IMG/VR virus record: IMGVR_UViG_3300017831_000047
Location: 1 to 42,767 of that record
Length of the DNA stretch: 42,767 nt
Strand: one strand, 5' to 3'
Source: a virus
Shown: piece by piece, positions 2,869 through 40,348 of the stretch
Layout of the letters: each line of letters opens with the position of its first letter
Numbering within the stretch: position 1 is the stretch's first letter
Notes under the pieces: model-generated
What the model was told of the DNA's origin: nothing
Databases searched by the model: none
What the model saw: the letters and a program-made list of their open reading frames with translations, nothing else
Program-made: the position numbers and the translations under genes

Positions 2869-2944
2869 GAGCCGCTAGCTCATTCGGTAGAGCATCGCCC
2901 TTTTAAGGCGAGTGTGCTGGGATCGAAGCCCAGGCGGCTCACCA
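2869..2944 (+). tRNA. tRNA-Lys (anticodon TTT), host of the attachment site
   Basis: A full cloverleaf can be drawn: acceptor stem GAGCCGC/GCGGCTC (2869-2875 with 2934-2940), D-arm GCTC/GAGC, anticodon stem TCGCC/GGCGA with loop CTTTTAA (anticodon TTT at 2902-2904), T-stem CTGGG/CCCAG, discriminator A and encoded CCA (2942-2944). The T-loop ATCGAAG has A instead of T at position 54, which is unusual. The gene stays intact after phage integration because attL supplies an identical 3' half. Confidence 0.92.
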
Positions 2945-2954
2945 CTATTTTATG
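2900..2954 (+). repeat. attL: direct repeat at the left end of the prophage
   Basis: Bases 2900-2945 (46 bp, anticodon loop to CCA plus one) are identical to 42421-42466. After one mismatch (T/C) the next eight bases (ATTTTATG) also match. The integrase stop codon (TAG on the minus strand, 2945-2947) lies inside the duplicated segment. Confidence 0.92.
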
Positions 2955-3961: not shown

Positions 3962-4161
3962 GGAACCTCCACGAATGAGGTCCGGGTGTGCCGATCTTGA
4001 GCGTACCCCGACCTGACCCAAACGACAAGATCCTCCTGCAGGAACCGCCAGATTCTTCCGACCTTCCTCCCGGGGATCCGTCCTGCTTTCGCTTCCTTGC
4101 GGAGCCAATCAGGGTGGATCTTGAGAAAGTGGGCGGCTTCATCAAGAGTGAGCGTGGTCAT
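3838..4161 (-). CDS. xis: excisionase-like helix-turn-helix protein
   Basis: 107 residues. Residues 3-52 form a MerR/excisionase-type winged helix (LTLDEAAHFLKIHPDWLRKEAKAG followed by a GRIWRFLQEDL wing). The rest is polar and probably disordered. It should direct the integrase toward excision by bending attL/attR. The start is ATG 4161 with AGGAGG upstream, overlapping the stop of the preceding DUF3850 gene by four bases. The last 41 codons overlap the integrase start in a different frame, which could couple the two. The assignment rests on the fold and position next to int. Confidence 0.75.
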   Translation of the reverse strand: MTTLTLDEAAHFLKIHPDWLRKEAKAGRIPGRKVGRIWRFLQEDLVVWVRSGYAQDRHTRTSFVEVPWEYSKEGPSGSLTSPHQAVNALRSRLGQPTERKPKNSTTA

Positions 4162-19571: not shown

Positions 19572-20901
19572 TTCCATCGTCTGGAAACCCCAGGAGGGAC
19601 CCCAACGGGCTCTTCTGGAGTGCCCGGTCCCGGACGTGTTTTTCGGGGGCGCTCGAGGAGGGGGAAAGTCCGATGCGTTGCTGGGGGATTGGCTCTCCCA
19701 CGCTCATGCGCACGGCAAGCACGCCAAGGGGATCCTGTTCCGGCAAAGCATGCCTGAACTCGAAGAGCTGCAAGGACGAGCCCTCCAGATCTTTCCGGCC
19801 ATCGGGGGAGAGTGGAAAGCCGGACCTCGCACCTGGTATTTCCGAAATGGTGCCAGTCTGAAAATGCGCTGGCTCGAGCGCGTCGAGGACACCAGCAAAT
19901 ACCAGGGACATGCCTATACCTGGATCGGGATCGACGAATGCGGAAACTATCCTACGCCGGAAGCGATCGATCGGCTGCGGGCGACCATGCGGTCCGCCCA
20001 CGGCGTCCCCTGCGTTCTCCGACTGACCGGAAACCCCGGGGGGGTCGGCCATGAATGGCTCAAGGAGAGATACATCAAGCCCTCTCCTCCCGGAAAGCCC
20101 TTCTGGTCTGAAGCCCAGAAGACCTTGCGCGTTTATATTCCCTCCCGGCTCCAGGACAACAAGGTTTTGATGCAGGCAGACCCCGGCTATGTCGATCGGC
20201 TCTATGCCTCCGGCCCGTCCTGGCTCGTGAAAGCGTGGCTGGAAGGTGATTGGGATGTGTCGGTCTCCGGAAAGCTGTTCCTGAGATCCTGGTGGCAGTT
20301 CTATTCTCTCGTGCCGGATCTTTTGGCGATCTTCCAGGTGTGGGACACCGGGGTGAAGGACCGAGAGGATAACGATCCTTCGGCCTGTCTGACCCTGGGG
20401 CTGCACCGTCTCGGTTGGTACGTCCTCGATGCCTGGTCGGATCGCGTGGAGTATCCCGAGCTCAAGCGCCAGGTAGGAATTCAGTTTGCCAAGTGGAAAG
20501 AGCCCGGGTGCTCGCAGATTCTGATCGAAGATGCAGCCTCAGGGTCGTCTTTGATTCAGGACCTGAGAACCGGGGGAAGACTGCCGATCAAACCGGTTCG
20601 CCACAAGAACAAGATCAAGCCGGCCTATGCGATCAGTCCTCTGGTGGAATCCGGGCGCGTCTTCCTCCCGCACGATGGGCGCTGGACCAGCGACTTCATC
20701 GAACAGTTCGCGCTCTTCCCGAATGGTCCGCATGACGAGTGGGTGGACTGCCTGACCTTCGGGATTCTGGACGGTCCCAAGATCGAGTCGGCCATTCCAA
20801 ACACGCCTCAGGAGCCTGTGAGCTATATTCCGGCTTCGAAGCGCAAGGGGAGAGCTATTCCTCAAGACGACGATATCCGGTGGGGAGGGGGAAGAAAGTG
20901 A
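19555..20901 (+). CDS. terL: terminase large subunit
   Basis: 448 residues. ATPase: Walker A FFGGARGGGKSD (29-40) and Walker B YTWIGIDECGN (D127, E128). Nuclease: the first acidic residue in FQVWDTGVKDRED and further Asp residues in ILIEDAASGSSLI and DEWVDCLTFG. It powers DNA translocation into the procapsid and cuts the concatemer. ATG 19555 was chosen because homology starts there, with AGGA upstream. Confidence 0.95.
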   Translation: MPKESNSIVWKPQEGPQRALLECPVPDVFFGGARGGGKSDALLGDWLSHAHAHGKHAKGILFRQSMPELEELQGRALQIFPAIGGEWKAGPRTWYFRNGASLKMRWLERVEDTSKYQGHAYTWIGIDECGNYPTPEAIDRLRATMRSAHGVPCVLRLTGNPGGVGHEWLKERYIKPSPPGKPFWSEAQKTLRVYIPSRLQDNKVLMQADPGYVDRLYASGPSWLVKAWLEGDWDVSVSGKLFLRSWWQFYSLVPDLLAIFQVWDTGVKDREDNDPSACLTLGLHRLGWYVLDAWSDRVEYPELKRQVGIQFAKWKEPGCSQILIEDAASGSSLIQDLRTGGRLPIKPVRHKNKIKPAYAISPLVESGRVFLPHDGRWTSDFIEQFALFPNGPHDEWVDCLTFGILDGPKIESAIPNTPQEPVSYIPASKRKGRAIPQDDDIRWGGGRK

Positions 20902-21113
20902 AGAAAAATGTGACACTCGGGGACACTTTGTTCCTCTCAATCGTGCTCTCAAATTATTTACGAGAAGCAAGAGGGAGAGCGGATCTCAAGGAAGTCTACA
21001 AGGTCTGTTCGTACCTTGATACCAACCTGGAGCAAAAGTCATTCGAATCCTTCCGAAAGGCCTATTATCGCGCCAAAAGAAAGTTCCAAGGGGTGTCCCT
21101 AACTGTCACATAA
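20898..21113 (+). CDS. small hypothetical protein after terminase
   Basis: 71 residues, helical (TLFLSIVLSNYLREARGRADLKEVYKVCSYLDTNLEQKSFESFRKAYYRAKRKF). GTG 20898 overlaps the terminase stop (GTGA) and follows a GGGGAGGGGG tract. Downstream the DNA has several TGTCACA units and a short inverted repeat GTCG-TTTT-CGAC (21136-21147). Function unknown. Confidence 0.65.
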   Translation: MKKNVTLGDTLFLSIVLSNYLREARGRADLKEVYKVCSYLDTNLEQKSFESFRKAYYRAKRKFQGVSLTVT

Positions 21114-21164
21114 TGTCACACAAATTTTAGTGTAAGTCGTTTTCGACCATGCTATTTCTCAGGC

Positions 21165-23408
21165 ATGGACACTCTCACCGACGACCAGATTGTTGCCCGC
21201 ATAAACTCCTGGCTCTCCGAACAGTCCTACGAATTGCAGGGCTATCTCGAGCGCGAGGAGGATGCGCTTGCCCGGTATCTGGGGGGCCGTCCCAAGGCCA
21301 ACCCCGATTCTCCCTGGGAAGGCTCATCGGACCTCGATATCGGGGGGTCCCTCACTCTCGCCCATGTGGAATCGATTCATTCCCGCACGATGTACGCTCT
21401 CCAGCGCTCCGCTCCTTTCGTCACCGTGAAATCCAAAAATCAGGATCTCGCCGATCAGGCCGAGCTCTACCTCCGCCATGTTCTGGACCATGAGACGGCT
21501 TTTCTCCGTTTCGCCTCGAAATGGATCCGGCCCGCTCTCGTGGGAGGCTGCAGACGGGCGAAGGCCGTGTGGGAAAAAGACGTGCAGCGGGTGGGAGAGA
21601 CCCACCGATTCACGTTGCCTCCCGGGATTGTGGGAAGCGATCTGGAAGAACCCGCCATCCGTGCGTTCCTTCTCGAACGTCTGAAAAACCGCTTCGGGGA
21701 ATTCACGATCCACGAGCGGACCGACTCGCATTGGACGATTCGATTCGAGCGCGATGGGGAAGAGGTCGAGGCCGACCTCCGGTACGTCCTCCACGGCGAC
21801 AAGATCGATGCCACGGTGGAATGGCCGGATGTGACCTTCGAAGGGGTCCGCTACACCGTGGTCAAGCCGGAAGACTTCTGGAAGAGTCCGGGCCCCATTC
21901 AGACCTGTCGCTACCTGATCCACCGGGTCTGGATGACCTGGAGCGAACTTGTGGCACGGGTCGAAGACGGAACCTACGATCTGGATCTTGAGCGCGACTA
22001 CTCCGAGTTCAAGCAGTATGCGACCGATCCCATCATGCAGGTGGAGGGCGGCTCGGATCTCGTCCAGCAACGCCGGGAAGTGGCTGGGGAATCGACCATG
22101 ATCCTCGGAGAAGAATACTACGAGATCCTCGAGTGCTACATCCTCGACTTCTGGGACAACCGGGAATACCTCGAAGATCGGATCATCACCGTCTTCCGTG
22201 GGCCCGGCAAGATCCTCCGGAATGAGCTCCGCTCCAGCGCCGGATATCCCATGCGTCCGTTCTCGGAAATCATCATCCAGCCCATCCCGGACAAGGATTC
22301 CTACGGCCTGGGCATTCCCACGATCATCGGGCCTCTTGCCGACGAAGAAACGGCCGTCCACAACCTCATGATGGATTCCGCCACAATCACGGCGGTTCCT
22401 CCCATTTTCTACGACGAGACCAGCGGCCTCAAAAACGAAAAGATGAAGGTCGCTCCCGGCCGGATGGTGCCGCTTTCCTCTACCAATGGGAACCTAGGCT
22501 CCGTCATCTGGATGCCTACCTACGGGGCTAATCTCTCTCCCATCTCCTCCCTCCAGAACCGGATCGACACCATCATGCAGTCGGTGGATGGCGTGTCGGA
22601 CACCCAACTTGCCCATGCCCCCAAGTCGAAGACGCTGGGGCAGAGCACGCTTGTCCAGGACGAGATCAACATCCGTTTTCAGGCTATCTGGGACAACATT
22701 GTGGGAAATATGTCGGAAATGTCCGGACTGGCGGGATTGATCGCCATCACGGCCGCACTCTACCAGCGCTTCGGAAAACCGCTGGAGATCGAGGCGGTCA
22801 CCGGAGAGTATTCCGAAGTCTCGTTCCCGCAAGCCTTCAAGTACTCCCTCCAGATCACGGCAAACATCAACAAGATCAACCAGAATGCCCAGGTGGCCAA
22901 GGCTCGGGGCGTGGTCCAGACCCTCATGAACCCCATGCTCATGCAGCTTGGCCTCGCCAATCCCCAAACCCTCTATCACGCTCTCAAGAATCTTCTGGAA
23001 GCCATGGACGTGGACAACTGGGAGGATCTCCTCGCCGAACCTCCTCAGGAAAAAATGGCCTCCGTCAACCCAGATCAGGAAAACCTCCAGATGCTTCCGG
23101 GAAAGATCGTGCCTGTTCATCCGGCCGACGACGACCAGGCCCACATTGTGGCCCATGCGGGATTCCTGCAGAAACTCCAGGAGGAACCGGGGCTTTGTCA
23201 GAACCCGGCCGTTTACGTGGAGCACATCAAGCGTCACCGGAAACAGGAGCAGATGAAGGCCCAGCAACAGCAAAGCCAAGCCGACATGCCAGGGGCCGGG
23301 ATACCGCAAGGACCTGCTGGCTCTCCGATCGCCAATACTCCGGTGCCGGGAGGGGCTCCCGCGATGCCGGAAGGTCCGGTCGGAGCCGGAGCCATGCCGA
23401 ATGCGTAG
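21165..23408 (+). CDS. portal protein
   Basis: 747 residues, in range for podovirus portals. Typical features: the N-terminal GRPKANPDSPWEGSSDLDIGGSLTLAHVESIHSRTMYALQ, an acidic/aromatic core, and a long C-terminal helical part. The last 70 residues are Gln- then Gly/Pro/Ala-rich. It forms the dodecameric DNA channel at one capsid vertex. The Shine-Dalgarno before ATG 21165 is weak (only AGG close by), so translation may be modulated. Confidence 0.87.
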   Translation: MDTLTDDQIVARINSWLSEQSYELQGYLEREEDALARYLGGRPKANPDSPWEGSSDLDIGGSLTLAHVESIHSRTMYALQRSAPFVTVKSKNQDLADQAELYLRHVLDHETAFLRFASKWIRPALVGGCRRAKAVWEKDVQRVGETHRFTLPPGIVGSDLEEPAIRAFLLERLKNRFGEFTIHERTDSHWTIRFERDGEEVEADLRYVLHGDKIDATVEWPDVTFEGVRYTVVKPEDFWKSPGPIQTCRYLIHRVWMTWSELVARVEDGTYDLDLERDYSEFKQYATDPIMQVEGGSDLVQQRREVAGESTMILGEEYYEILECYILDFWDNREYLEDRIITVFRGPGKILRNELRSSAGYPMRPFSEIIIQPIPDKDSYGLGIPTIIGPLADEETAVHNLMMDSATITAVPPIFYDETSGLKNEKMKVAPGRMVPLSSTNGNLGSVIWMPTYGANLSPISSLQNRIDTIMQSVDGVSDTQLAHAPKSKTLGQSTLVQDEINIRFQAIWDNIVGNMSEMSGLAGLIAITAALYQRFGKPLEIEAVTGEYSEVSFPQAFKYSLQITANINKINQNAQVAKARGVVQTLMNPMLMQLGLANPQTLYHALKNLLEAMDVDNWEDLLAEPPQEKMASVNPDQENLQMLPGKIVPVHPADDDQAHIVAHAGFLQKLQEEPGLCQNPAVYVEHIKRHRKQEQMKAQQQQSQADMPGAGIPQGPAGSPIANTPVPGGAPAMPEGPVGAGAMPNA

Positions 23409-25970: not shown

Positions 25971-26441
25971 ATGAACATTCCGATTCTGCCCCCGCAACCT
26001 GAGATCGATGAGGCGTCCCATGTGGTCCAGATTGCCCCAACAACCACCGACACCTTCTCTCCGCATGAGTTCGTAAAGCTCGCGGGGGGACTGGTCGTTC
26101 CTTCGGCCAGTGCGGATGCCTCGGTCTTTGGGCTTTGCCTCTCGGAGTATCCCGATCCTTCCGGAAAGCTCAATCAGTCAGTCATCCCGGTGTTGCGGGC
26201 CCGAGCAGGCCAGCGGTTCTGGATGAACGTCTCCGGAGCCGTCCTTTCTCAGGCCAATCTGGGGGGTCAGTACGGTCTTGTGATCACCAACGGGGTCGCC
26301 ATGGTGGATCTGACCAATACCACGGAAAAGGTCTTCGAGATCATCGAGATCGGGGTGCAGGCGGGAGTTCTTCCCAACGGCGGAATCGGGGACACGAACG
26401 CCCGGGTTCTGGTCGAAATTCTTTCATCCGCTGTGGCCTAA
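25971..26441 (+). CDS. putative capsid decoration protein
   Basis: 156 residues, beta-rich (HVVQIAPTTTDTFSPHEFVKLAGGLVVPSASADASVFGLCLSEYP...QRFWMNVSGAVLSQANLGGQYGLV), ending in VLVEILSSAVA. Size, composition and its place directly before the major capsid gene suggest a capsid-stabilising protein. ATG 25971 follows AAGGAGGA. Confidence 0.6.
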   Translation: MNIPILPPQPEIDEASHVVQIAPTTTDTFSPHEFVKLAGGLVVPSASADASVFGLCLSEYPDPSGKLNQSVIPVLRARAGQRFWMNVSGAVLSQANLGGQYGLVITNGVAMVDLTNTTEKVFEIIEIGVQAGVLPNGGIGDTNARVLVEILSSAVA

Positions 26442-27791: not shown

Positions 27792-28700
27792 ATGTATTCA
27801 ACATTTCAAAGTTGTTATCAGGAGGTCTTAAACCGGACCCGCTCTCTTCCTCAACAAAGCTACCTCTCCCCGCTCAAGAATGCCGTAAACGCCATTTATC
27901 AGGAGCTGTGCTCCTGGCGTGAATGGCCATTTCTCCAGAAGACGGGACGGCTGACCCTTGTCGCTCCCGTCACCACGGGGACTCTTTCAGGCCAAGCCGG
28001 TACAAACACGCTCTCCGGGAGCGGCACAGCTTTCACCATTTCTATGATCGGCTGGTATCTGCGTTATGGGTCCGATAACGCGCTCTATGAGATTACGGGA
28101 GTGGATCCGGTTTCCCAGACGCTCACGGTGGCTCCAGTCCTTTCCTTGGGCGGAACGGACCTCTCCTATTCCGTTTTCCCCTTCTCCTACTCACTTCCTT
28201 CGGACTTTCGGCTCCCGGAACCCGTGACGGCATTCCAGTTGTCTCCCAAGATGCGCTTTGTCGGCACCCGGGAGATCCAGTCCGATTTGATCAATACCAG
28301 GTTCGGAACTCCCGACCGTTGGACTATCGTCTATCGCAGCGATGAGCCACAGACCCCTCAGATGGTGTTCTTTCCCTTTCCAGCCCAACCCATCGTGGTG
28401 CAGTTTCTCTACCTGCCTCAGGTTCCTGACCTTGTGAACGATTCTGATCCCATTCTGATTCCCTCCAATTACCGGAGGGCGATCATTGAAGGGGCTATGG
28501 CTATCTTCTACCGGGACGTTCTGGACGATCCGGCAAGAGCCCAGATCTCCAAGGGGGAGTATATCCAGCTTCGGAATCAGATGTGCACCGATTATGGGTT
28601 GTGGGATGACCAGCCACAGCTTCGGCCGGCCAGTTTCCGGGGTCTCCAGAGAAGGTTTGGAGCCGACGCCATTATTGAGCGCATGGTGTGGAGAGTCTAA
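27792..28700 (+). CDS. short-tail tube / adaptor protein (tail tube A-like)
   Basis: 302 residues. Helical N-terminus (YSTFQSCYQEVLNRTRSL...NAVNAIYQELCSW), a small inserted beta domain (about 55-120), then SLPSDFRLPEPVTAF...PSNYRRAIIEGAMAIFYRDVLDDPARAQISKGEYIQLRNQM, the helix pair of podovirus head-to-tail adaptors. It should connect portal to tail tip. ATG 27792 follows GAGGAAGAG. Confidence 0.65.
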   Translation: MYSTFQSCYQEVLNRTRSLPQQSYLSPLKNAVNAIYQELCSWREWPFLQKTGRLTLVAPVTTGTLSGQAGTNTLSGSGTAFTISMIGWYLRYGSDNALYEITGVDPVSQTLTVAPVLSLGGTDLSYSVFPFSYSLPSDFRLPEPVTAFQLSPKMRFVGTREIQSDLINTRFGTPDRWTIVYRSDEPQTPQMVFFPFPAQPIVVQFLYLPQVPDLVNDSDPILIPSNYRRAIIEGAMAIFYRDVLDDPARAQISKGEYIQLRNQMCTDYGLWDDQPQLRPASFRGLQRRFGADAIIERMVWRV

Positions 28701-30601
28701 TGGCCCAACCCTCCCTCCGTAAAAACATCACATTGGACTTCGGCAAATTTGGGCTGGATACCCGTCTTCCGCCCATTGCCCCCCAAGTTCTGGGTTTCAA
28801 CAAGGCGACCAACATCTATTTTACCGTTCGCGCCTCTTTCAAGAGCCGACCGGGACACCAGTGGTTCGGGCCGGACTTTCCGTCTTCAGATCCCATTGAC
28901 GGGCTTTTTGACTTTTGGGTCGACGGCCAGAGCGAATATGTGCTGGCCGTTCAGGGGGGCATCGTCTGGGTCTATAACTCGGGGACGAACACCTGGACCC
29001 AGCTTTCGGTTTCCAATCCCACGACGGCTCCCACCTTATCCTTTTCCTCCTCGTCCGGAACATTGGCGGCCGGGACCTATACCTATGCGGTGACGGCCCT
29101 GAATGGGCAAGGGGAAACTCTCGCTTCTCCAACCGCTTCTATTACGACAACGGCCACAGGAGAAATCGCGGTTTACTGGAATGCGGTTCCGGGAGCGACT
29201 TCCTACAATGTGTATGGCCGCACGAATGGGGCACTTGGTCTCATTGCCAATACGACCTACCTCTCTCTCATGGACAATGGCTCCTTGACGCCAGGCGTTG
29301 CACCTCCCACGACCGATTCGGCGATGTACCACACTGGTCTTCCAGTCAATTTTGCCGTTCTGATGCGCAAGGTCGTTTTCGGTAACGGGACGGATCACAA
29401 CTACATCTTTGACGGGACGACGCTTTCGGACCTCACGGTAACAAATGGCGCATACAACCTCGTGCCATGTAGTTATTTTCTGGCCCATAACAACCGGATC
29501 TATGCGGCGGGATCCTCGGTCCACCCCTCCACGGTCTACTGGTGCGCTGTGGACAATCCTTCCGACTGGACGGCTCCTGACGATGCCGGAAATGTTCAGG
29601 TTGAAGGTGGCCGGGATGTCATTACCGGGCTGGGGTCGTTCGGTTCGGATGTCTGGATCTTCAAGGGGCCAAAATATGGGGCCATTTTTGTTTTGTCCGG
29701 AACCAGCTATGACAATTTTGCCCTTCAACCCGCCTACCGGGGAATGTTCGGCTATCACCGGTCTATCGTCAATGTGGGCAATGATCTCCTGTTCCAGGGC
29801 CCGGACGGGATTTACTCTCTGGCTCACATGATGCAGACCGGGGGGAATCTCCAGACGTCCCGCATCTCGGAAAACGTCCAATCCCTCTTCCAGGCCCTCC
29901 CGGCCTCCATGCTGGGAGCCGGATGTGCAGTCTATTACGAGCCAGAAAACATTGTGGTCTTTTATCTGTCCAAGGGAGGAGTCAATCTCGATTACGCCCT
30001 GGTGGTGAGTCCTCCGGATCCGCTCGATGTGAATATGTTCGGGTTTGGCTCCGAGCAGTACAAATACCGCTGGGCCTCCTGGAACCTGCCTCCCTCCGAT
30101 GTGGCGACCTACCAGATCTCCTCGACGAATGTGAAAGGGGTGCTGACCGGGCAGATCGACACGAACGGCAATCGTCGTGTCTCTATCTGGAACTGGACGT
30201 CGGGAACGGATTCGGATGGGACTCAGGTGACCGGGGTTCTCAGTCTTCCGTTCCTTTCGATGGGCCATCTTCTCCGGGAAAAACTCTTGCGTCATCTTGC
30301 CGTGGCCTATTTCGCCACCGGTGAGATCGCCGCAACCCTCACCATGATGAATGGATCGTCCTATCCCGTGACATTTCCTGCCGTCACTCAGCAGGACTGG
30401 CCGGACGTTCCCACGGGAGACACGTGGCCGGATGTTCCCACCACCACTCCTTGGCCGGCCGGGGAAACCCCCATCCTGAACAATGTGCCGATCGGCGGAT
30501 CCTCGACCGCTTTTTCCTTGTCCCTGTCGAATATCGGGGGAGTGATGGAGGTCTTTGTGTTCGAGCTTTTTTATCTTTTCGGAGGATGGAATGAGAATTG
30601 A
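28700..30601 (+). CDS. large tail protein with FN3-like insert (tail tube B-like)
   Basis: 633 residues. N-terminus DFGKFGLDTRLPPIAPQVLGFNKATNIYFTVRASFKSRPG is typical of podovirus tail-tip proteins. Residues about 110-185 form a fibronectin-like module (SGTLAAGTYTYAVTALNGQGETLASPTASITT...YNVYGRTNG) also present in the tail fibre at 38042. The rest is a long beta structure. ATG 28700 overlaps the previous stop (TAATG). Expected in the tail hub beneath the portal. Confidence 0.7.
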   Translation: MAQPSLRKNITLDFGKFGLDTRLPPIAPQVLGFNKATNIYFTVRASFKSRPGHQWFGPDFPSSDPIDGLFDFWVDGQSEYVLAVQGGIVWVYNSGTNTWTQLSVSNPTTAPTLSFSSSSGTLAAGTYTYAVTALNGQGETLASPTASITTTATGEIAVYWNAVPGATSYNVYGRTNGALGLIANTTYLSLMDNGSLTPGVAPPTTDSAMYHTGLPVNFAVLMRKVVFGNGTDHNYIFDGTTLSDLTVTNGAYNLVPCSYFLAHNNRIYAAGSSVHPSTVYWCAVDNPSDWTAPDDAGNVQVEGGRDVITGLGSFGSDVWIFKGPKYGAIFVLSGTSYDNFALQPAYRGMFGYHRSIVNVGNDLLFQGPDGIYSLAHMMQTGGNLQTSRISENVQSLFQALPASMLGAGCAVYYEPENIVVFYLSKGGVNLDYALVVSPPDPLDVNMFGFGSEQYKYRWASWNLPPSDVATYQISSTNVKGVLTGQIDTNGNRRVSIWNWTSGTDSDGTQVTGVLSLPFLSMGHLLREKLLRHLAVAYFATGEIAATLTMMNGSSYPVTFPAVTQQDWPDVPTGDTWPDVPTTTPWPAGETPILNNVPIGGSSTAFSLSLSNIGGVMEVFVFELFYLFGGWNEN

Positions 30602-31844: not shown

Positions 31845-32155
31845 AAAAGCCGGAAAAGATCGAGCCGAATTGCCCGCTGATTCAGGTTCCATGCGTGGAA
31901 GAGGGGTGCCGGTTCTGGCTCCGGATGGAAAGACGCAACATCGCCACCGGCGCACGGGAGGAATATCACGAGTGCGCCTTTATCGTTCAGATAGGGGTCG
32001 CAACGGAGAACTCCATGGCTCTCAACCGGATGGTGGAATCGTTAGGAGCTTTCCGCGATCACACTGTAGAAGCTGTCCGGAATCATTCGCTCGCCATGGC
32101 GATGCATCTGGACAAGGGGTTCGGGAACCTTAAGGCCTTGGAGGAAAAACCGTGA
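31841..32155 (+). CDS. hypothetical protein with cysteine pairs
   Basis: 104 residues. N-terminal cysteines (CPLIQVPCVEEGC ... HEC) could bind a metal; the C-terminal half is helical (NRMVESLGAFRDHTVEAVRNHSLAMAMHLDKGFGNL). TTG 31841 with AAGGAGA upstream. Four-base overlaps on both sides. Unknown role. Confidence 0.6.
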   Translation: MKKPEKIEPNCPLIQVPCVEEGCRFWLRMERRNIATGAREEYHECAFIVQIGVATENSMALNRMVESLGAFRDHTVEAVRNHSLAMAMHLDKGFGNLKALEEKP

Positions 32156-32526
32156 TCCGGAATTTGCGTTCCTCCGAAAAACTGCCCGAGTGGTCCGATC
32201 TCATTTTCCGGCGACTGGATCCTGAATGGGTGTGGGTATTGGAGGAATCAGAAGAAATTAGGGTTGTTCTCGTTGCGGCTCCCGTTCATGACCTGGTTCT
32301 GCTGTGTCGGGTGCAGTCGCACTATCCAAAAGAGCGGATGTGGTGGAAGAAGATCATGCAGAAAGTGGCCTCCGATTGTCTCAATCGAGGATTCAGCACC
32401 TATTTGTGTACCACGGTGCCGGAAGATCGGGCCTCGCGGGGATTGAATGCTTTTTTCCGAAGGCATGGGGCCCGTGAGGGTAAAGAAGGAATCTGCTTCA
32501 TCGGCGAATGGGAGAAGATCGCATGA
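32152..32526 (+). CDS. putative GNAT-like protein
   Basis: 124 residues. The order of strands and helices (WVWVLEESEEIRVVLVAAPVHDLVLLCRVQSH...WWKKIMQKVASDCLNRGFSTYLCTTVPED...GLNAFFRRHGAREGKEGICFIGEW) resembles the acetyltransferase fold, but the acetyl-CoA loop is not clear. Such proteins recur between fibre and ejection genes in podoviruses. GTG 32152 overlaps the previous stop. Confidence 0.5.
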   Translation: MIRNLRSSEKLPEWSDLIFRRLDPEWVWVLEESEEIRVVLVAAPVHDLVLLCRVQSHYPKERMWWKKIMQKVASDCLNRGFSTYLCTTVPEDRASRGLNAFFRRHGAREGKEGICFIGEWEKIA

Positions 32527-33272
32527 GTCTTAATTTCGGAAGCGGAAGCCAGACAAGTACAACAAGCGGGACAACCAGCACAAAAGGAACCTCGTCCGGA
32601 TCGTCCAAATCCAGCCAGTCGATTGCCCCCATGTCTTCGACGGAAAAGGGGTTGACCCGGAGCTTGGCCTCTTATTCCCCAAACTACATGAATCCGGCGA
32701 CCTCCGGAGGACTGTCGGCCATCATGAATATGTATCAGACCGGAATGCAACCGACGAAAGCCCAGCAAAGCGGCCTTCAATCGATCGAACAGTCCCAGTT
32801 GGCCGCAGACCAGCAAGGGTTGAATTTTTCGCTATTCGGTCCCGGGGGATGGATGGATCAAATCAACAACCAGATGGCCGACCGGGGAATGACCAACTCT
32901 TCCGTCGACACGATGGCTCAAACAGGAGCAGTGGAAAACGCCCAGAATCTCATGAACCAGGACGTTCAAAATGCCAATTCCCAATACCAGCAGGGAATGC
33001 TGAACCTTCCCTACGAGAATGCCAATGTTCTGTCCGGTCTGGCCTCTCTGGGTTTGAATGTCTCCGGCCAAAACGCTCGCGTCATGCAGGGGCTTCTCGG
33101 ACTTCTGACTCAGCGGGATATGGCCAACGCAACCCAAACCGGGAACTTCAACCAATCCACGAACCAGACGCAGAATTACAACTCCACGACGACCGGCAAT
33201 AGCAGTTCCTTCGGGATCGGCACCGGAAACTTGGGAGGCGGCCTCGTAGCCGGCCTGACTGCGGGCTTATAA
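32523..33272 (+). CDS. putative ejection / internal virion protein, Ser-Gln-Asn rich
   Basis: 249 residues. Low-complexity Ser/Thr/Gly N-terminus (SQTSTTSGTTSTKGTSSGSSKSSQ), a helical, Gln/Asn-rich centre with few charges (QTGMQPTKAQQSGLQSIEQSQLAADQQGL), and a C-terminal Asn/Thr-Gly tail. This composition matches small ejected proteins that cross the cell envelope. ATG 32523 with GGGAGAAG upstream. Confidence 0.6.
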   Translation: MSLNFGSGSQTSTTSGTTSTKGTSSGSSKSSQSIAPMSSTEKGLTRSLASYSPNYMNPATSGGLSAIMNMYQTGMQPTKAQQSGLQSIEQSQLAADQQGLNFSLFGPGGWMDQINNQMADRGMTNSSVDTMAQTGAVENAQNLMNQDVQNANSQYQQGMLNLPYENANVLSGLASLGLNVSGQNARVMQGLLGLLTQRDMANATQTGNFNQSTNQTQNYNSTTTGNSSSFGIGTGNLGGGLVAGLTAGL

Positions 33273-33281
33273 GGAGCGTCC

Positions 33282-35132
33282 ATGGGATTTCTCTCTTCTC
33301 TTGAAAGCGGGATGGATACGGCCGGAAGGGTGTTGGGACTGCCCGTGGTCTCCCCGCTTCTCGAACTTCCTCAATACCTTCATCGGAAGAATCAGGATGC
33401 GGCTCTTGAAAAGGCGGTCGGCTCTCTTGATCAAAAAGGGGCTCCTTCCCGGAGTCTGCTTTACCCCACGGCTCCAGTGAACGGAAATGCGCCGACTCCT
33501 TCCGGAAGTTTGGGGCTCCTCGCATCAGCCGATCCTCCCCTTCCGGCCAATTTTAAACCGGGGCAACCTCTTCCTCGTCCTTCGGCACAGGAGATCCCTC
33601 AAGGGGCGCAAATCGCGCAGGGTCCACCCCGATTGGTGTCGTCTGCCACTCCTCCCGGCACGAGGTCGAAAGAGTTCCTGGGAACCCTGCAGAAGATCTA
33701 CAGCCCTGAAGCCTTGGCCTCCATGAAGAAAACCGATCCGAAGCAATATGCCAAGGTCATGGCCTTCCGGGGGATTGCCAACTACGACCAGGGGAATGCC
33801 CAAGGTGCGGTGGCCGATTTGGTGGAGGCCGGCCTTCCGGCGACCGACGCCATTGCGATCCTGCAGGAGCAGAAGGCCCAGAAGGCGATGGGTCAGTTCG
33901 GAGAGACCCTCCAGAATCTCTTGAAAGGACCGGCTCCAGCACCAGGTCCAAAGCCTCCGGTCATGGTTCCGCCCGAGCGTTTGTCTCCCATGAGTCAGAC
34001 GGGATCGGGCCAGGCAATTCCGGCGTCGTTTCCTCAAGGGGTGGGAAGCTCCACTCTTCCCACGGCTCGGGATGGGATGCCCCTCACAAAGCAGGAGTTC
34101 ACGCAGAAGGCCTTCAAGGCTCTTCTGTCCGTTCCTCCGGCCCAGAGGAATGCGGCCTTCCAACAGGTGCAGCAAATCGCTTCAACCCTTCCGGACAGGA
34201 AGGAATTAGCCCCTCTTCGGGCCCAGCAACAGCTTCCTGCCTTTGAAGCCGGGTTGAGCGCGGCCAGAACGCCCCAGGACGTTCAGAATCTGATCGCCTC
34301 CCAGATCCGGAAGCTCCCGGTTGCCGCCCGTGATCCCTTCATCAAATCGATCAGCCCTCTTCTTGCGAACTGGCAGAAAAACTATGCGGTCCAACAGAAG
34401 GAAAGCACCCTCACCGGACCGGCTCTGGATCTTGCCGCCAAGCAGTATCTGGCAACAGGCACCATGCCGTCTTTCGGAATGCAGGGGCAGAAACAGAAAG
34501 AAGCGGTCATGAACCGGGCGGCCCAAATGCAGCAATCCGAAGGGTTGACCCCGGACGATGTCGTTTTCAACCAGAACGAGTTGAAAACCGCGAGACAAGC
34601 GTTGGGGCAGATCCAGAAATCCCAGGGGATGATCATGCAGTACGAGGAAACGGCTTACAAGAATGCCGATCTGGCCCTCAAGGCTGCGGATCAGACCGAT
34701 CGGACGGGAGTTCCTCTGCTCAATCGCTGGAAGATGGCCCTAATAAGCGGGGTGGGGGGAAGTCCGGAGGTGGCCCGTTTCAATGCGGCCAACCAGACCT
34801 TTGTGAATGAATACGCCAAGGTCATGTCGGGGGGATACGGAGCGTCGGCCACTTCGGATTCGGCCCGGCAGGAGGCCCTCTCGATGCTCAACACCGCCCA
34901 GACACCGGAGCAATACCGGGCCGTTGTGGATCAGCTCAAGAAGGAAATGAACAACCGGATGCAGGCGATGAAGGATACCCGAGCCTTCCTGGAGAACCAG
35001 ATGAAACGGGCGATTTCCGGGAAACGGGCTCCCTCTTCGGGAGGTCTGCCCAAAGGGGCCATCCCTGGAACCTTCCGAGGACAAAAAGGATATCTCCTGA
35101 ACGGCCGCTTCTACCCGGAGAAGACCCAATGA
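33282..35132 (+). CDS. putative ejection / internal virion protein
   Basis: 616 residues, Ala/Gln/Pro-rich and largely helical, with an amphipathic N-terminus (GFLSSLESGMDTAGRVLGLPVVSPLLELP). The middle has Pro-rich linkers (GPAPAPGPKPPVMVPP). The C-terminal half has long helices (DVVFNQNELKTARQALGQIQKSQGMIMQYEETAYKNADLALKA) and a GYGASATSDSARQEALSMLNTAQTPEQYRAVVDQLKKEM segment shared by many podovirus ejection proteins. Overlaps the next gene by four bases. Confidence 0.65.
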   Translation: MGFLSSLESGMDTAGRVLGLPVVSPLLELPQYLHRKNQDAALEKAVGSLDQKGAPSRSLLYPTAPVNGNAPTPSGSLGLLASADPPLPANFKPGQPLPRPSAQEIPQGAQIAQGPPRLVSSATPPGTRSKEFLGTLQKIYSPEALASMKKTDPKQYAKVMAFRGIANYDQGNAQGAVADLVEAGLPATDAIAILQEQKAQKAMGQFGETLQNLLKGPAPAPGPKPPVMVPPERLSPMSQTGSGQAIPASFPQGVGSSTLPTARDGMPLTKQEFTQKAFKALLSVPPAQRNAAFQQVQQIASTLPDRKELAPLRAQQQLPAFEAGLSAARTPQDVQNLIASQIRKLPVAARDPFIKSISPLLANWQKNYAVQQKESTLTGPALDLAAKQYLATGTMPSFGMQGQKQKEAVMNRAAQMQQSEGLTPDDVVFNQNELKTARQALGQIQKSQGMIMQYEETAYKNADLALKAADQTDRTGVPLLNRWKMALISGVGGSPEVARFNAANQTFVNEYAKVMSGGYGASATSDSARQEALSMLNTAQTPEQYRAVVDQLKKEMNNRMQAMKDTRAFLENQMKRAISGKRAPSSGGLPKGAIPGTFRGQKGYLLNGRFYPEKTQ

Positions 35133-36757
35133 GCGGCATCGTTCTGACACCGGACCAGTTGAAAGAATTCAAGCCTGACCCGGGCATCAAACTCACTCCT
35201 CAGGACATGAAGGACTTTGTTCCTGAAGGAGGGGCACAAAAAGCGTCTCCGGCTTCTTCCTCCCCCCAAAAAAGGAAGTGGTCCCAGGTGCCGGGAGAAG
35301 CTCTGAAAAATGCTCTTCCTTCGCTCGGGAAAACGGCCGAAAACATCGGATCGTCCCTTCTTCATCCGCTGGATACCGTGGAGGCCGGGGTCAGGGGACT
35401 TTCGGGAGGCCTGGATCTCTTTCTGAAGGCCATGGACCTCCATCCCTCGAAGCTCTATCGACACCCCGAGGAATATCAGAAAGACGTGGCGGTGGCCCGC
35501 TCCCTCCTGCATCACCTTTCCGGCCGCTACGGTTCCGAGGATGCGATCAAGAACACCTTGGCTACTGATCCAGCGGGAGCTCTTCTGGATGCGTCGGCCC
35601 TCTTGTCTCCCGCCTCGGGACTCCTTCGAAAAGCAGGACTTCCTGACGCTGCCTCCGTCGCTGACAGGGTGACTCAGGCCCCCGTGGCTCTGGCTGTGAA
35701 AGGGGCAAAGAAGGGGAGCCAGCTTGCCGGTAAAGGAGTGGCCCAGGTTTTGGGGAAAACGACCGGGGCAGGAGCGGAGGCTGTTGCGGAGTCGGTGAAG
35801 GGTCGTCCGGGATTTGTCGAATTGATGCGGGGAGGACCCCAGGAGGAAGAGGACCTGGCCAACAAGGCCTTGGCTCGTCTGGCCCAGCTCAAGATGGAGC
35901 GAAGTCAGAAGTATGACGCCGCCTTGAAAGATCTCGGGAATCCCCTCCTGTCGACCGAACCGATGGCCCGAAATTACGTGAATGTGATGAAAAAAATGGG
36001 AGTGGCCGCTCCCGGGGGAAAGACGCTGGATTTCTCGAAGTCGAGTTTGGGATTCGATGAAGGTCTTCCAAAGCTCGAGGCGGCTCATCAACTTTTCCGG
36101 GATGCGTGGATGAAAAAGAACGTGGGGCTCCAGGAAGCCGTGGTCTTGAAGCATCAGGTGGGGAACCTTCTGGATTCCACGAAGCCGGGAAGTCGGGCCC
36201 AGATGGTCCTGACAAAGCTCGTGAAAGGGATCGACGATGTGCTGAAACAGCATCCGGGCTACCGCAAGATGAACTTGGAGTATGCGGCCCAATCCAACCT
36301 CATCTCCCAACTTGAAAAGGCGTTTTCGCTGAAATCGGCCAACAGGAAAAATATCCAGACCATCCTCACCAAGATGCACACCCATTCGAAGCGGAAGAAT
36401 GATTTCTCCCGGGCGCTCATGGAAAAGCTTGATCCCACCGGCGACCTCGCGGCCCGGATGCGGGGGATGATGATGAAACCGGCGTTCAGGCATGGAATGA
36501 CCGGCACATGGGGAACGGGGATCCTGACGGGAGAAGGGGTGCTTGGGGGCTACGGACTGTATGGACACTCGGTCGCTCTTCCGGGGGTGGGGCTCGGAGC
36601 TCTGGCCTTGACCTCTCCTCGTCTGGTGGGAGAGGCGGGGAATCTCCTTGGCAAAGGAGGAAGGGTGGTCGGATCGCTGGCGAAGCGGAGTCGACTTCCG
36701 GCGTCTGGACTTCTGGCCATCCTTGAAGAGGAAGGAGCGCTCACCAATGGCCAATAA
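35129..36757 (+). CDS. putative large internal virion protein
   Basis: 542 residues. The N-terminus has two short repeats (LTPDQLKEF and LTPQDMKDF). Helical, Gly/Ala-rich stretches (PLDTVEAGVRGLSGGLDLFLKAM, GALLDASALLSPASGLL) and a hydrophobic C-terminal region (GTGILTGEGVLGGYGLYGHSVALPGVGLGALAL) suggest membrane-active ejection. No lysozyme or transglycosylase motif seen. It overlaps the ATP-grasp gene by 11 bases. Confidence 0.6.
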   Translation: MSGIVLTPDQLKEFKPDPGIKLTPQDMKDFVPEGGAQKASPASSSPQKRKWSQVPGEALKNALPSLGKTAENIGSSLLHPLDTVEAGVRGLSGGLDLFLKAMDLHPSKLYRHPEEYQKDVAVARSLLHHLSGRYGSEDAIKNTLATDPAGALLDASALLSPASGLLRKAGLPDAASVADRVTQAPVALAVKGAKKGSQLAGKGVAQVLGKTTGAGAEAVAESVKGRPGFVELMRGGPQEEEDLANKALARLAQLKMERSQKYDAALKDLGNPLLSTEPMARNYVNVMKKMGVAAPGGKTLDFSKSSLGFDEGLPKLEAAHQLFRDAWMKKNVGLQEAVVLKHQVGNLLDSTKPGSRAQMVLTKLVKGIDDVLKQHPGYRKMNLEYAAQSNLISQLEKAFSLKSANRKNIQTILTKMHTHSKRKNDFSRALMEKLDPTGDLAARMRGMMMKPAFRHGMTGTWGTGILTGEGVLGGYGLYGHSVALPGVGLGALALTSPRLVGEAGNLLGKGGRVVGSLAKRSRLPASGLLAILEEEGALTNGQ

Positions 36758-38045
36758 ACCCCTTCGGATCGCTTTCCTGACCAAGGATGGTACCTATCTG
36801 CCCTTTGCCGTCCGCTGCCTCATCGAAGGGTGCGAGGTGCGGGCTGTCTGGACGAGGCCCCGCAAAAGCCGGATCGGCGTCGGAATGGTAGACGAGCTTC
36901 CTCTGGGTGCGCTTCCGAAATGGAAGCCGGATGCCGTCATCGTCGATTGCACCGGGATGGGGAAAATTGCCGATCGACTCAGGAAAGCGGGGCTTCCCGT
37001 CTATGGAGGTTCCGAATTGGCCGATCTTCTCGAATACGAGCGGGACAAGGTTCTGGACCTTCTCAAGCAGGCCGGGATCGCTGTTCCGGAGACCTATTCC
37101 ACCCGGAATGTCTCTCAGGCGATCGCCCATGTCCGAAAGACGGGAGGGTCTTTCGTGATCAAGCTGGACGGGGAGAAAGGGGCAGGATCCTCCCTCACGT
37201 ATGTCGGGACTGGTCCGGAGGATGTGATCGAAATGCTCGAAACCTACTCGGGGAAGATCGGAGGGGCCATCATCAATCTCCAGACCAAGGTCCAGGGAGT
37301 TGAGATCAGCACCGAGGGATTCTTCGACGGACGGACTTTCCTTCCCGGTCTTTGGAACCACACCCTCGAGCGCAAGAAGTTCATGAATGGGGATATCGGC
37401 CCGAACACGGGATGCGCGGGAGACGTGATGTGGTGGACCGACACCAACCGGGTGATCGAAGAGGGGATCAAAAAGCTTGAGCCAGTCTTGGCGAAAATGG
37501 GATTTTACGGGCAGATCGACCTGAATACCATTGTCGAACGGAGCTGGGAGGATGGAAAAAAGGATCCCGTTCTGAAGGTCTGGGGGCTCGAACTGACTCC
37601 CCGTTTCGGGATCAATGCCTCCGTCACCCTGATGCAGCTGGTGAACCAGCCCATGTCTCGGTATTTCGTGGAGGCGGCCCACCGGGAAATCAAGGATATC
37701 AAGAAGGACAAAGGATACGCCCTGTCCGTGACGGTTTCCATCCCGCCCCATCCGAACAAGACTGCTGAGATTCCGTCGAAGGATATTCCGGTGTTGTTCC
37801 CGCTGGAGATGCTTTCGCACGTCAATCCGCTCGACATGTGGTGGAACGGGGATCATTTCGAGAGCGCGGGGGATGGGGGCTGGATCTGCTCCCCGGCCGG
37901 GACGGGATCCTCCATTAAAGAAGCGAAGTATGACGCCTATCGGATGGTCGACGAGATCAACCTTCCCAACAAGCAGTACAGGACGGATATCGGCGACAAG
38001 GCGGAGGAGGATATCAAGACCCTTGAGCGGTGGGGGATGTTGTGA
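36747..38045 (+). CDS. PurD-like ATP-grasp ligase in the virion gene cluster
   Basis: 432 residues with the glycinamide-ribonucleotide-synthetase layout: an N-terminal Rossmann-like domain (LRIAFLTKDGTYLPFAVRCLIEGCEVRAVW), ATP-grasp A domain (FVIKLDGEKGAGSSLTYV), GVEISTEGFFDGRTFLPG, then the signature GDIGPNTGCAGDVMWW and the metal/ATP end GLELTPRFGINASVTLMQL. The classical PurD N-terminal GxxGREH motif is absent, so the substrate may differ from phosphoribosylamine. Its location between ejection and fibre genes suggests a virion-assembly or surface-modification ligase rather than purine synthesis. ATG 36747 with AAGGAG upstream. Confidence 0.8.
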   Translation: MANKPLRIAFLTKDGTYLPFAVRCLIEGCEVRAVWTRPRKSRIGVGMVDELPLGALPKWKPDAVIVDCTGMGKIADRLRKAGLPVYGGSELADLLEYERDKVLDLLKQAGIAVPETYSTRNVSQAIAHVRKTGGSFVIKLDGEKGAGSSLTYVGTGPEDVIEMLETYSGKIGGAIINLQTKVQGVEISTEGFFDGRTFLPGLWNHTLERKKFMNGDIGPNTGCAGDVMWWTDTNRVIEEGIKKLEPVLAKMGFYGQIDLNTIVERSWEDGKKDPVLKVWGLELTPRFGINASVTLMQLVNQPMSRYFVEAAHREIKDIKKDKGYALSVTVSIPPHPNKTAEIPSKDIPVLFPLEMLSHVNPLDMWWNGDHFESAGDGGWICSPAGTGSSIKEAKYDAYRMVDEINLPNKQYRTDIGDKAEEDIKTLERWGML

Positions 38046-40348
38046 AGGTTCAGACGCGCCTTCAAGACATGGCCGATGTGGGGGTTCAAAAGCCAGCCGT
38101 TGGAGACCAGGTGGTGTTCGATGGAAAAGCCTGGGTTAACCGTACCTCGGTGAATCCCACCACACAGCAGAACGCCTTTTATGCTCCGGCTAAACTGCTT
38201 GTTTATTACGGAGAACCGATCGCCTTCCAGGATCTCTGGAGTGTCAGCGAAATCGTGATGCGGATCGCCAAGTGGGACATCTGGGTGTGCGGAGCCGGCT
38301 ATGAAAATCCCCAGGATGCCAATTACAGCACGACCACACAAATCATCGCCGGAGTCCGAGCGCTCGGAACGAAGGTCTTTGGTTATGTGACAGTGGGGGG
38401 CCCTCCTTTGGCCACCCTTGCTCAGATCCAGCAGAACGTCACGTGGTGGGCAAATATCGGGGTCGACGGCATCTTCTTTGATAGCTGTGGGTTCGATTTC
38501 ACCGGGGTCACCCGGGAACTTCAGATCGGAGCGAAACAAGCAGCCTTGTCCTTCGGTTTGCCTGTCGCCTGGAACGCCTACTATTTCGAGCATGTGGCGG
38601 CCGATAATATTACGCAGGTAACATGGCCCTCTTCCTCCTCCCGTTACCAAGAATTCCAGACCGGTAACCCGAACAATCTCGTCCTTCCCCGCACGGCAGG
38701 GGATATTTATGTGTTCGAGGATTTCGGATGTGACGCTAACGGGACATTTCCCAGCGATCCTTCCAATTCCAATATGGGGGATCTCCAGTTTCACCAGAAA
38801 GCCATGCAGGTTGTCTGGAACCAGCCCCAGGTGATCTTTGGCCAGTCTTCTCTTCCTCCTAGCCCCCCTCTTGCCCAATTTGCGGTGTGGGTCATCGTGA
38901 CCCTTCCCGAGACAGACAATACTGGCCAGGTCCCCAATTACTCCCTCCTTGGGAATCTCCAGAACCTCCAGCAAATTTTCGAGTATTTCTGGGCTTGTGT
39001 TTACCTCTATACAACGACGGGAAATTTGGGCGCTCCGTTTATCACGGCCGTCTGTATATCGGGTTCCAATTACGGGTCGTGGGGATACATCCTTGAGACT
39101 CCCCGTATGGCTCTGCCGGATGCCCTCTTGGGCACGATGACCCAGAACAATATGCCGGTGGCGGATTATACCCATCACACGTTTTCAAGACAGCTTGGGC
39201 CGCAAGCAGTCCTTGAAGTGGTGACGAACATTGCCGATTCTCCCAATCCTCCGGCCTTGTCGATCGTCTCCGGGAATCTTCCCCCCGGTACGTATTATTA
39301 CCGGATCACCCGATTCTCAACCTTTGGAGAAACCCTTCCGAGCACGGAGGTGTCCATTACTCTTTCTTCAGCCGGGGGGGTTCTTATTGATTGGGGCAAT
39401 ACTTCCGCCAGCGGATGGGAAAAGGCGTTCGCGGTGTATGGTCGAACATCCGGGGGGGAGCAGTTTTTGCAAAAGGTTCAAACGGTCAACGCAACAAACT
39501 GGACCGATGATGGATCGGTCACTCCTTCGGGTCCCATGCCCACCGAAAACACCGCCTATGAGTTTCTGCCCAGGTTTTCGAACCTTTTCTTCACCGGTGC
39601 CGGAGAACCTCTGCAGGTTGGAACGCTGGCCACGAGCGGGAACGCTTCGGTAGGGGGAGAACTGACCGCCAACAGTCTCTCTGTCACCTCCAGCGCCGTG
39701 GTGGGAGGAAGCATTTCGAGCCAGGGGGCGTCGATCAATGGCGCTGTGGCTGTCGATGTGGCTTCCGGTTTTACCGGGGATATTCTCGCCCTCGAGGTGG
39801 GAGGAGTCTCGAAGGTCACCGTGGATCAGGCAGGCAATGTCGTAGCGTCCGGGACAGTCCAGGGGGCCGATGCAGTGGCCAATACCCAGGACTTCATTCC
39901 CATTTCGCAGGCGGATGGCCGCTACCTTCTCGTGAGCGATCTTCCTCTGCCCATATCCGAAGGGGGAACTGGGGAAACAACGGCTTCAGCCGCACTGACA
40001 GCCCTGGGAGGAGTCACCAAAGCCCAAACGGATCTGCTCTACCCCTCCATGACTGGCTCGCTTACCACATTTTCCCCCGTGAGCGGGACGGTCTACCAGA
40101 ACACTTCAGGGCAACCCCAGACGATCATTGTGCCGGTCACTTACAGTCCGACTTCGACGGAGGCCGCAACGATGACCCCGGCCTTGGGATCCTCATCTCC
40201 TCCGGGGAACCTCCCGTCTGAAAGCGAGCCCGCCAGTCTCGCAGTGGGGAGGGTCCGGAGTTATTCCCTCCGGGTTCCGTCCGGATGGTATTACAGCTTC
40301 ACAACAGTCAACGCAACTCTGGGGACTGCCCAGATCATTCAGGGATGA
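38042..40348 (+). CDS. long tail fibre with spherulin-4/glycosidase-like head
   Basis: 768 residues in modules: about 1-50 virion-binding; about 50-300 a TIM-barrel-like domain (KLLVYYGEPIAFQDLW, TKVFGYVTVGG, NIGVDGIFFDSCGFDF, LPVAWNAYYFE, DIYVFEDFGCD) resembling spherulin-4/polygalactosaminidase-type glycosidases; a fibronectin-like module (about 405-480, LPPGTYYYRITRFSTFGETLPSTEVSITL); then fibre repeats and an SEGGTGETTASAALTALGG segment near the end. Probably binds and may cut host polysaccharide. GTG 38042 overlaps the previous stop (GTGA). Confidence 0.72.
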   Translation: MKVQTRLQDMADVGVQKPAVGDQVVFDGKAWVNRTSVNPTTQQNAFYAPAKLLVYYGEPIAFQDLWSVSEIVMRIAKWDIWVCGAGYENPQDANYSTTTQIIAGVRALGTKVFGYVTVGGPPLATLAQIQQNVTWWANIGVDGIFFDSCGFDFTGVTRELQIGAKQAALSFGLPVAWNAYYFEHVAADNITQVTWPSSSSRYQEFQTGNPNNLVLPRTAGDIYVFEDFGCDANGTFPSDPSNSNMGDLQFHQKAMQVVWNQPQVIFGQSSLPPSPPLAQFAVWVIVTLPETDNTGQVPNYSLLGNLQNLQQIFEYFWACVYLYTTTGNLGAPFITAVCISGSNYGSWGYILETPRMALPDALLGTMTQNNMPVADYTHHTFSRQLGPQAVLEVVTNIADSPNPPALSIVSGNLPPGTYYYRITRFSTFGETLPSTEVSITLSSAGGVLIDWGNTSASGWEKAFAVYGRTSGGEQFLQKVQTVNATNWTDDGSVTPSGPMPTENTAYEFLPRFSNLFFTGAGEPLQVGTLATSGNASVGGELTANSLSVTSSAVVGGSISSQGASINGAVAVDVASGFTGDILALEVGGVSKVTVDQAGNVVASGTVQGADAVANTQDFIPISQADGRYLLVSDLPLPISEGGTGETTASAALTALGGVTKAQTDLLYPSMTGSLTTFSPVSGTVYQNTSGQPQTIIVPVTYSPTSTEAATMTPALGSSSPPGNLPSESEPASLAVGRVRSYSLRVPSGWYYSFTTVNATLGTAQIIQG

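Follow-up and report, generated by a model that had tools for sequence, protein, structure and literature searches.

A putative ATP-grasp ligase family with a predicted PurD fold, distinct from PurD, in virion gene clusters of uncultured phages and in a few bacteria

Background

Glycinamide ribonucleotide (GAR) synthetase, PurD, binds ATP through Lys103, Lys143, Glu185, Glu192 and Lys214, magnesium through Glu100 and Lys214, and glycine through Asp212, Arg287 and Glu292 (PMC8880213); as far as the relevant passages of that paper go, no structure with bound phosphoribosylamine is known. The gene treated here, called the ligase gene, encodes a PurD-like ATP-grasp protein and lies in a 42,767-base virus record of IMG/VR (IMGVR_UViG_3300017831_000047), the whole of which is referred to as the window. 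Score, motif, active-site residues and phylogeny show that the ligase is not PurD. Its relatives occur in a few bacteria and in numerous phages without a cultured representative, and with them it appears to make up an undescribed ATP-driven ligase family of its own; we consider it, with a probability of about one half, to be an ATP-grasp carboxylate-amine ligase that descends from PurD or is its sister, that has neither of the PurD substrate specificities, and that probably acts on a small amine.

After PurD, the next-best folds to the ligase model are PurT, PurK and PylC, about 9 Z units lower, and no sequence match of the ligase to these three was found. Like the ligase, PurT and PurK have arginine as their first ATP residue, together with a pair of metal-binding acids. 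With the ATP-grasp carboxylate-amine ligases in general the ligase shares the fold, two basic ATP residues (Arg99 and Lys139, each in 32 of 32 phage-type sequences) and the metal acids. The R2K/CDC123 enzymes are likewise phage-borne ATP-grasp proteins, with a protein-modifying role predicted in the portion of PMC4431377 drawn on here, whereas the ligase is of the PurD type; the R2K family was not among its Pfam matches at E <=1 in a scan whose filters drop weak matches. A podovirus-type cassette of ATP-grasp, amidoligase and glutamine amidotransferase genes has been described for phiEco32 and Pa11virus (PMC10580990, PMC6209634), and by that description the window resembles these phages in having an ATP-grasp gene, as well as an SU10-type adaptor. 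GATase_6 (PF13522) had no match in the window, with a control that matched in 14 of 14 genomes, and amidoligase (PF12224) was not searched for.

Phages are also reported to encode arginine, ornithine and S-adenosylmethionine (AdoMet) decarboxylases as well as spermidine acetyltransferases (PMC9992855), and proteins homologous to AdoMet decarboxylase can instead decarboxylate ornithine or arginine (PMC10407285, PMC9992855). A PurD-like ligase is not named in the passages of PMC9992855 covered here, and the word "ligase" is absent from the main text of both papers. A PurD-like ligase of phages was not the subject of any paper in the literature searched, which did not include Iyer et al. 2009, the likeliest earlier mention; in two papers on purD and auxiliary metabolic genes (PMC8725595, PMC11041744) the letters "purd" occur only within "Purdy" and "Purdue".

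The ligase gene and its predicted fold

The ligase gene is real and is under strong purifying selection. It translates without a stop over its full length and is preceded by a good match to a ribosome-binding site (Table 1), and in comparison with its 85% identical counterpart in L001, the Leptospirillum prophage described below, nonsynonymous divergence (dN) is 0.103 and synonymous divergence (dS) is 1.396, a dN/dS of ~0.07. In the same comparison dN is higher, at 0.21-0.30, for the 254-, 616-, 542- and 772-residue products of the surrounding open reading frames (ORFs). The three PurD-type ATP-grasp motifs named in the preliminary description of this DNA were located, with DGEKGAGSS starting at residue 141, GDIGPNTG at 215 and ELTPRFGINAS at 282, and the N-terminal glycine motif of PurD, GxGGREH, is absent as had been stated. 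The gene does overlap both of its neighbours, by 11 nt upstream and 16 nt downstream; the labels "ejection" and "fibre" attached to those neighbours derive from position and size.

Sequence profiles place the protein near PurD and below the level of PurD itself. GARS_A of Pfam matches above its cut-off (E 9e-8) and GARS_C below it (E 3e-6), PurD chains of the PDB match at E 2e-14, and the NCBIfam purD model (TIGR00877) gives 77.7 bits (E 7e-22), which does not reach its cut-off of 288. An AlphaFold 2 (AF2) model built from an alignment of 14 window and locus sequences, with a predicted local distance difference test score (pLDDT) of 84.3 and a predicted template-modelling score (pTM) of 0.85, predicts the PurD fold, with its N, A, B and C domains, over the whole length of the ligase. 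The top 15 Foldseek matches of this model in the PDB are all PurD (3lp8, E 5.6e-25), and the VIA Z score is 32.3 for PurD 2yw2, compared with 23.1 for PurT, 22.7 for PurK and 22.5 for PylC. PHROGs holds no family for the ligase (0 of 12 members), and a search of BFVD with the model returned distant ATP-grasp matches only, the best at a template-modelling (TM) score of 0.45.

Active-site residues

The residue roles of PurD were transferred through a HMMER alignment to 2yw2, which gives Arg99, Lys139, Gln179, Glu186 and Lys210 as the ligase counterparts of the ATP residues, Glu208, Arg286 and Ala291 as those of the glycine residues, and Glu96 as that of the magnesium residue Glu100. Counts refer to 32 phage-type and 11 PurD sequences, with the fragment L053 and the broken-frame L131 counted and L152 yielding no usable PurD. 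The likeness to PurD comprises the whole-length fold, the domain order, a GPNTG-type loop and four retained residues (K143, K214, R287 and E283 of PurD, which are K139, K210, R286 and E282 of the ligase); Lys139, Lys210 and Arg286 are unchanged in every sequence of both sets, and Glu282 is found in 31 of the 32 phage-type sequences.

Against this, K103, E185, D212 and N285 of PurD have become R, Q, E and T in the ligase type. Position 99 is Arg in 32/32 phage-type sequences and Lys in 11/11 PurD, position 179 is Gln (32/32) as opposed to Glu (11/11), position 208 is Glu (32/32) as opposed to Asp (11/11), and position 284 is Thr (30/32) where PurD has Asn, while Asp258 (30/32; Tyr in PurD) and Asn260 (31/32; Gly in PurD) are new. 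Two features of PurD are gone: Glu292, which corresponds to ligase position 291 and is present in 0/32 phage-type and 11/11 PurD sequences, and the GxGGREH loop, of which the Glu and His of REH occur in none of the 32 (the Arg in one) and in all 11 PurD. The sequences of the bacterial branch, discussed below, have the same set in 12 of 12 cases: Arg99, Gln179, Glu208, Asp258, Asn260 and Thr284, with Glu292 lacking. Of the checks proposed in the preliminary description, structure prediction gives a PurD fold, and a residue comparison of the glycine site with PurD shows Asp replaced by Glu, Arg kept and Glu292 lost.

In PurD, Glu292 presumably holds the amino group and the N-terminal loop presumably forms the phosphoribosylamine site; by analogy with other ATP-grasp enzymes, Asp258 of the ligase probably binds metal. 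We read the ligase family as a complete but different enzyme, in which carboxylate activation would be kept and Glu292 and the N-terminal loop have been lost. Judged by conservation the carboxylate-activating core is retained, and we infer that the ligase is catalytically active.

Distribution and phylogeny

Relatives of the ligase in IMG/VR show ~25-40% identity in sequence scans; the locus sets drawn from IMG/VR overlap, as they include the same contigs, and the 228 phage loci referred to below are redundant. Among the matches listed, deposited phages carry the ligase in 1 of 50,697 records, the circular phage genome MW202796 (L002), where the gene at 20001-21332 has no annotation. The other phage-collection matches examined group with PurD in trees, two of them being annotated as purD beside purH; one of the listings comprised the best 15 of 25. 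The ordinary bacterial purD genes in phage-collection records (L166, L169; e.g. AFYI01000006, CAKLQH020000004) look like contamination or misfiling.

The ligase was found in 39 of 39 phage records, which had been chosen for carrying it (one copy is split by a gap and one by the record ends). When the adaptor gene was used as bait in place of the ligase, all 20 loci that extend 9 kb or more downstream contained the ligase, as did six of seven with 7.4-8.9 kb (L250 has none in 7.4 kb), these loci being close relatives, some identical, that stand for one lineage and not for independent events. The ligase is a core gene of this one freshwater (lake) phage lineage.

In a first tree (30 phage-type and 11 PurD sequences) each group lies on one side of a 100/100 branch, and in a second (24 phage-type, 11 bacterial chromosomal and 9 PurD sequences) the family is again separated from PurD at 100/100. 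The second tree divides the family into three groups, lake-phage (99/100), bacterial (100/97) and window-type phage (97/94), and does not settle their branching order. The PurD of the Leptospirillum host itself falls on the PurD side, apart from the ligase family. The sample of PurD in these trees is small; both omit L053 and L131, and the second also omits L004, L007, L097, L121, L134, L136, L169, L171 and the truncated L282. The phylogeny called for in the preliminary description therefore does yield a clan apart from PurD at 100/100, although not a phage-only clade, since a bacterial chromosomal branch exists. A pattern scan of genome contigs gave only four loci (the prophage L128, L129 with a phage-type ORF next to it, L130, which falls near phage copies by phylogeny, and the broken L131), as a family restricted to phages would; profile searches refuted such a restriction.

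Gene neighbourhoods in phages

In the phages examined the ligase gene sits in virion gene clusters. The order in lake phages is adaptor, Hc3-like gene, GNAT or SET gene, ORFs of ~210, ~500 and 470-1502 codons, and ligase, and the window has the same order by size, with family matches for two members (adaptor, Hc3-like). No homology was detected between the neighbours in the window and those in lake phages, with HHalign at <=1% throughout and 99.9% for the ligase as control. Other lineages have the gene elsewhere: between a terminase-like and a portal-like ORF in L111, L112, L119, L124 and the partial L105 (examined by PHROG matches in L111), next to virion structural proteins in L108-type loci (by PHROG, in L117), and after a virion structural protein in L121-type loci, where it overlaps a GNAT-fold gene. 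The preliminary description raised the question whether such genes always stand next to fibre genes; they do not, as they also follow the last ejection-type gene, lie between terminase and portal, or adjoin head or tail structural genes. Nor is the ligase an obligatory part of the ejection cassette everywhere: the Bradyrhizobium phage ppBeUSDA76-2 and MW202825 each have a match to one ejection-type protein, and neither is among the ligase matches listed.

The slot that precedes the ejection-type genes of lake phages holds either a SET or a GNAT gene (L049 5056-5907, L002 15936-16343). In the 228 phage loci there were 68 GNAT matches, 28 SET matches and no locus with both. GNAT was matched through Pfam in nine of the 39 records at E <=0.1, eight of them above the cut-off, and SET in six phage records and one bacterial genome among 44, the two together in none. 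A model of the gene that overlaps the ligase in L121-type loci (pLDDT 75) has acetyltransferases as its listed matches, spermidine N-acetyltransferases first (E 6e-8). A core gene in one lineage that occurs in the virion clusters of several, yet in 1 of 50,697 deposited records, would imply an unknown chemistry at the stage of assembly.

Two phage copies (L109 6891-8468, L123 3239-4846) have a C-terminal extension of ~100 residues with the motif DLDGTLA; it is HAD-like by eye, and no Pfam match to it was obtained in L109.

Bacterial relatives

Bacterial profile searches at E <=1e-60 gave, counted by phylum, 12 of 297 genomes for G041 (an Acidobacteriaceae metagenome-assembled genome, MAG), 2 of 395 for G040 and 4 of 395 for G038, figures that include the query genomes and prophages (the genome of L131, the phage-like copy L130 and the Leptospirillum prophage are all counted). 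In L281 (8782-12133) the ligase gene is preceded by PvlArgDC (E 9e-62) and followed by a DAP_epimerase-like gene (E 1e-19) and SET (E 7e-10), possibly an undescribed operon for small-molecule or protein modification. An AdoMet_dc gene (E 5e-33) overlaps the start of the ligase in L282, the ligase of L283 is followed by a GAMT gene, guanidinoacetate N-methyltransferase-like (E 2e-37), and in L280 a methyltransferase ends at the ligase start codon. Operons of this kind in bacteria, in which the ligase gene is accompanied by decarboxylase, epimerase-like and SET genes, offer a tractable route to the substrates.

Proposed function and alternatives

In the mechanism that we favour ATP would phosphorylate a carboxylate, and the acyl-phosphate, held by Arg286 and Glu208, would be attacked by an amine to yield an amide, with Arg99, Lys139, Gln179 and Lys210 on ATP and Asp258 and Glu282 on magnesium. 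The likeliest amine is a small product of decarboxylation, of polyamine or guanidino type, because three bacterial relatives adjoin a gene for a decarboxylase (of arginine or of AdoMet) or for a protein like guanidinoacetate methyltransferase; the carboxylate partner would be a free acid or a protein side chain. The phage would make the ligase late, co-translated with virion proteins, because the ORFs overlap. Where the preliminary description had suggested a virion protein, the fibre or a surface glycan as target, the bacterial neighbours suggest small amines instead. Several observations weigh against the favoured reading. The three loci that point to the amine belong to a sister branch, and tblastn found no polyamine decarboxylase in the 228 phage loci. 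The Acidobacteriota copies (8 loci), which are the majority of the bacterial copies examined, lie elsewhere: in L267 and L270 the neighbours are metabolic genes, including MFS transporters and an aminotransferase. In L267 MFS transporters flank the ligase on both sides, and the aminotransferase close by is of class III. The position of the ligase relative to its neighbours was established in five of these eight regions, and neighbour sequences were read in L267 and L270. The ribose-binding Glu186 is Ala in four and Cys or Asp in two of the 32 phage-type sequences, and model pLDDT is <50 at residues 144-148 and 212-220, which are the ATP and substrate loops.

A possible though tentative alternative is a modifier of virion proteins: as the particle is assembled, the ligase would attach an amine, an amino acid or a small carboxylate to a head, ejection or fibre protein, working with the cassette's GNAT or SET enzyme. 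It would account for the position in virion clusters, for core-gene status in one lineage, for GNAT or SET in one slot of the lake phages and a GNAT-fold gene overlapping the ligase in a second lineage, and for SET beside the bacterial copy L281. However, the neighbouring proteins change from one lineage to another (HHalign <=1% between the window and lake phages), so that no common target stands out, and the bacterial branch works without any virion. A broader scheme, in which phages and bacteria would share an undescribed amine-conjugation system composed of the ligase, SET or GNAT partners and, in bacteria, an arginine or AdoMet decarboxylase, its conjugate being needed for building or using the particle, is unlikely. 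Distinctly unlikely is an ejected or intracellular effector, packaged or made late, that modifies a host protein or metabolite in takeover, anti-defence or a superinfection block: the ligase gene is directly 3' of ejection-type genes in the window and the lake phages, and modification of host proteins is the role predicted for the R2K type of phage ATP-grasp enzyme in the parts of PMC4431377 and PMC7824862 used here, but in L111, L119 and L124 it lies between terminase and portal, away from ejection genes, and late expression is at odds with early takeover.

The changes at Glu186 in six of the 32 sequences, in a gene found among structural genes, might be expected of an inactive ATP-grasp protein kept as a structural or assembly scaffold. 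This is very unlikely, as the catalytic lysines including Lys210, Arg286, Glu208 and the metal acids persist in phages and bacteria that have diverged widely, and the swap to a new residue set is coherent. The auxiliary metabolic gene considered in the preliminary description, a working PurD that boosts purine synthesis, can be given hardly any credence, despite the PurD fold and full-length PurD alignment, and was rejected on residues and score: the protein is below the PurD cut-off, no member retains GxGGREH or Glu292, and the Leptospirillum genome with the prophage encodes a PurD of its own (413.5 bits). Software that names such a gene purD would wrongly book a purine auxiliary metabolic gene, and purD calls in viromes need a residue check. 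The earlier remark that no purine gene is nearby stands for the part that was checked, namely the ORFs given Pfam and PHROG scans, none of which is a purine gene, and a genome-wide search made for GATase_6 only, which found none.

The source phage and its cassette

The window has a tyrosine integrase gene (2945-4108, minus strand) adjoining a tRNA-Lys gene (2869-2944), together with genes for a C5 DNA methylase and an S24/CI-like repressor, and therefore derives from a temperate phage. L001 is the same element as a prophage, which it matches at 99.99%, in a MAG titled Leptospirillum sp.; the prophage has its integrase at the start (contig position 26022) and, in the contig 5' of it, leu/ilv, gyrA, gyrB and smpB genes as read by eye. 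A Leptospirillum-type, iron-oxidising host for the window phage is accordingly probable, and the prophage offers a host in which the ligase may be studied. The tRNA-Lys region of the window is 98% identical over 86 bp to the Leptospirillum MAG, and from this match host DNA or an attachment site may be present in the left part of the window (the 2869-4108 region).

Table 1. Coordinates of the ligase gene and associated features in the window
Feature	Coordinates	Strand	Evidence
SU10-type tail adaptor	27792..28700	+	Pfam SU10_adaptor E 5e-8, above cut-off
Hc3 / stabilisation-like protein, head of cassette	28688..30601	+	PHROG head closure Hc3 E 3e-7
254-aa Ser/Gln/Asn-rich ORF of ligase cassette	32508..33272	+	No PHROG match
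616-aa ORF of ligase cassette, ejection-type by position	33282..35132	+	No PHROG match
542-aa ORF directly upstream of ligase, last "ejection-type"	35129..36757	+	Label from position and size; no Pfam or PHROG match
Putative ribosome-binding-like stretch AGGAAGGAG	36729..36737	+	9 nt 5' of ATG 36747; sequence as read, function presumed
PurD-like ATP-grasp ligase, 432 aa	36747..38045	+	Open frame; PurD-family matches under PurD cut-off; AF2 model
772-aa ORF directly downstream of ligase, putative fibre/spike	38030..40348	+	Spherulin4 E 0.0037 (weak); PHROG esterase/lipase E 5.5e-10

An ORF at 32152-32526 of the window is GNAT-like by eye; it has no Pfam or PHROG match and is absent from L001, and a GNAT is not claimed there. 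The Hc3-like protein and the putative fibre have a region in common, which falls in one BLAST cluster and matches PHROG 19622 (esterase/lipase) in both, a pattern that suggests duplication of a domain inside the phage genome.

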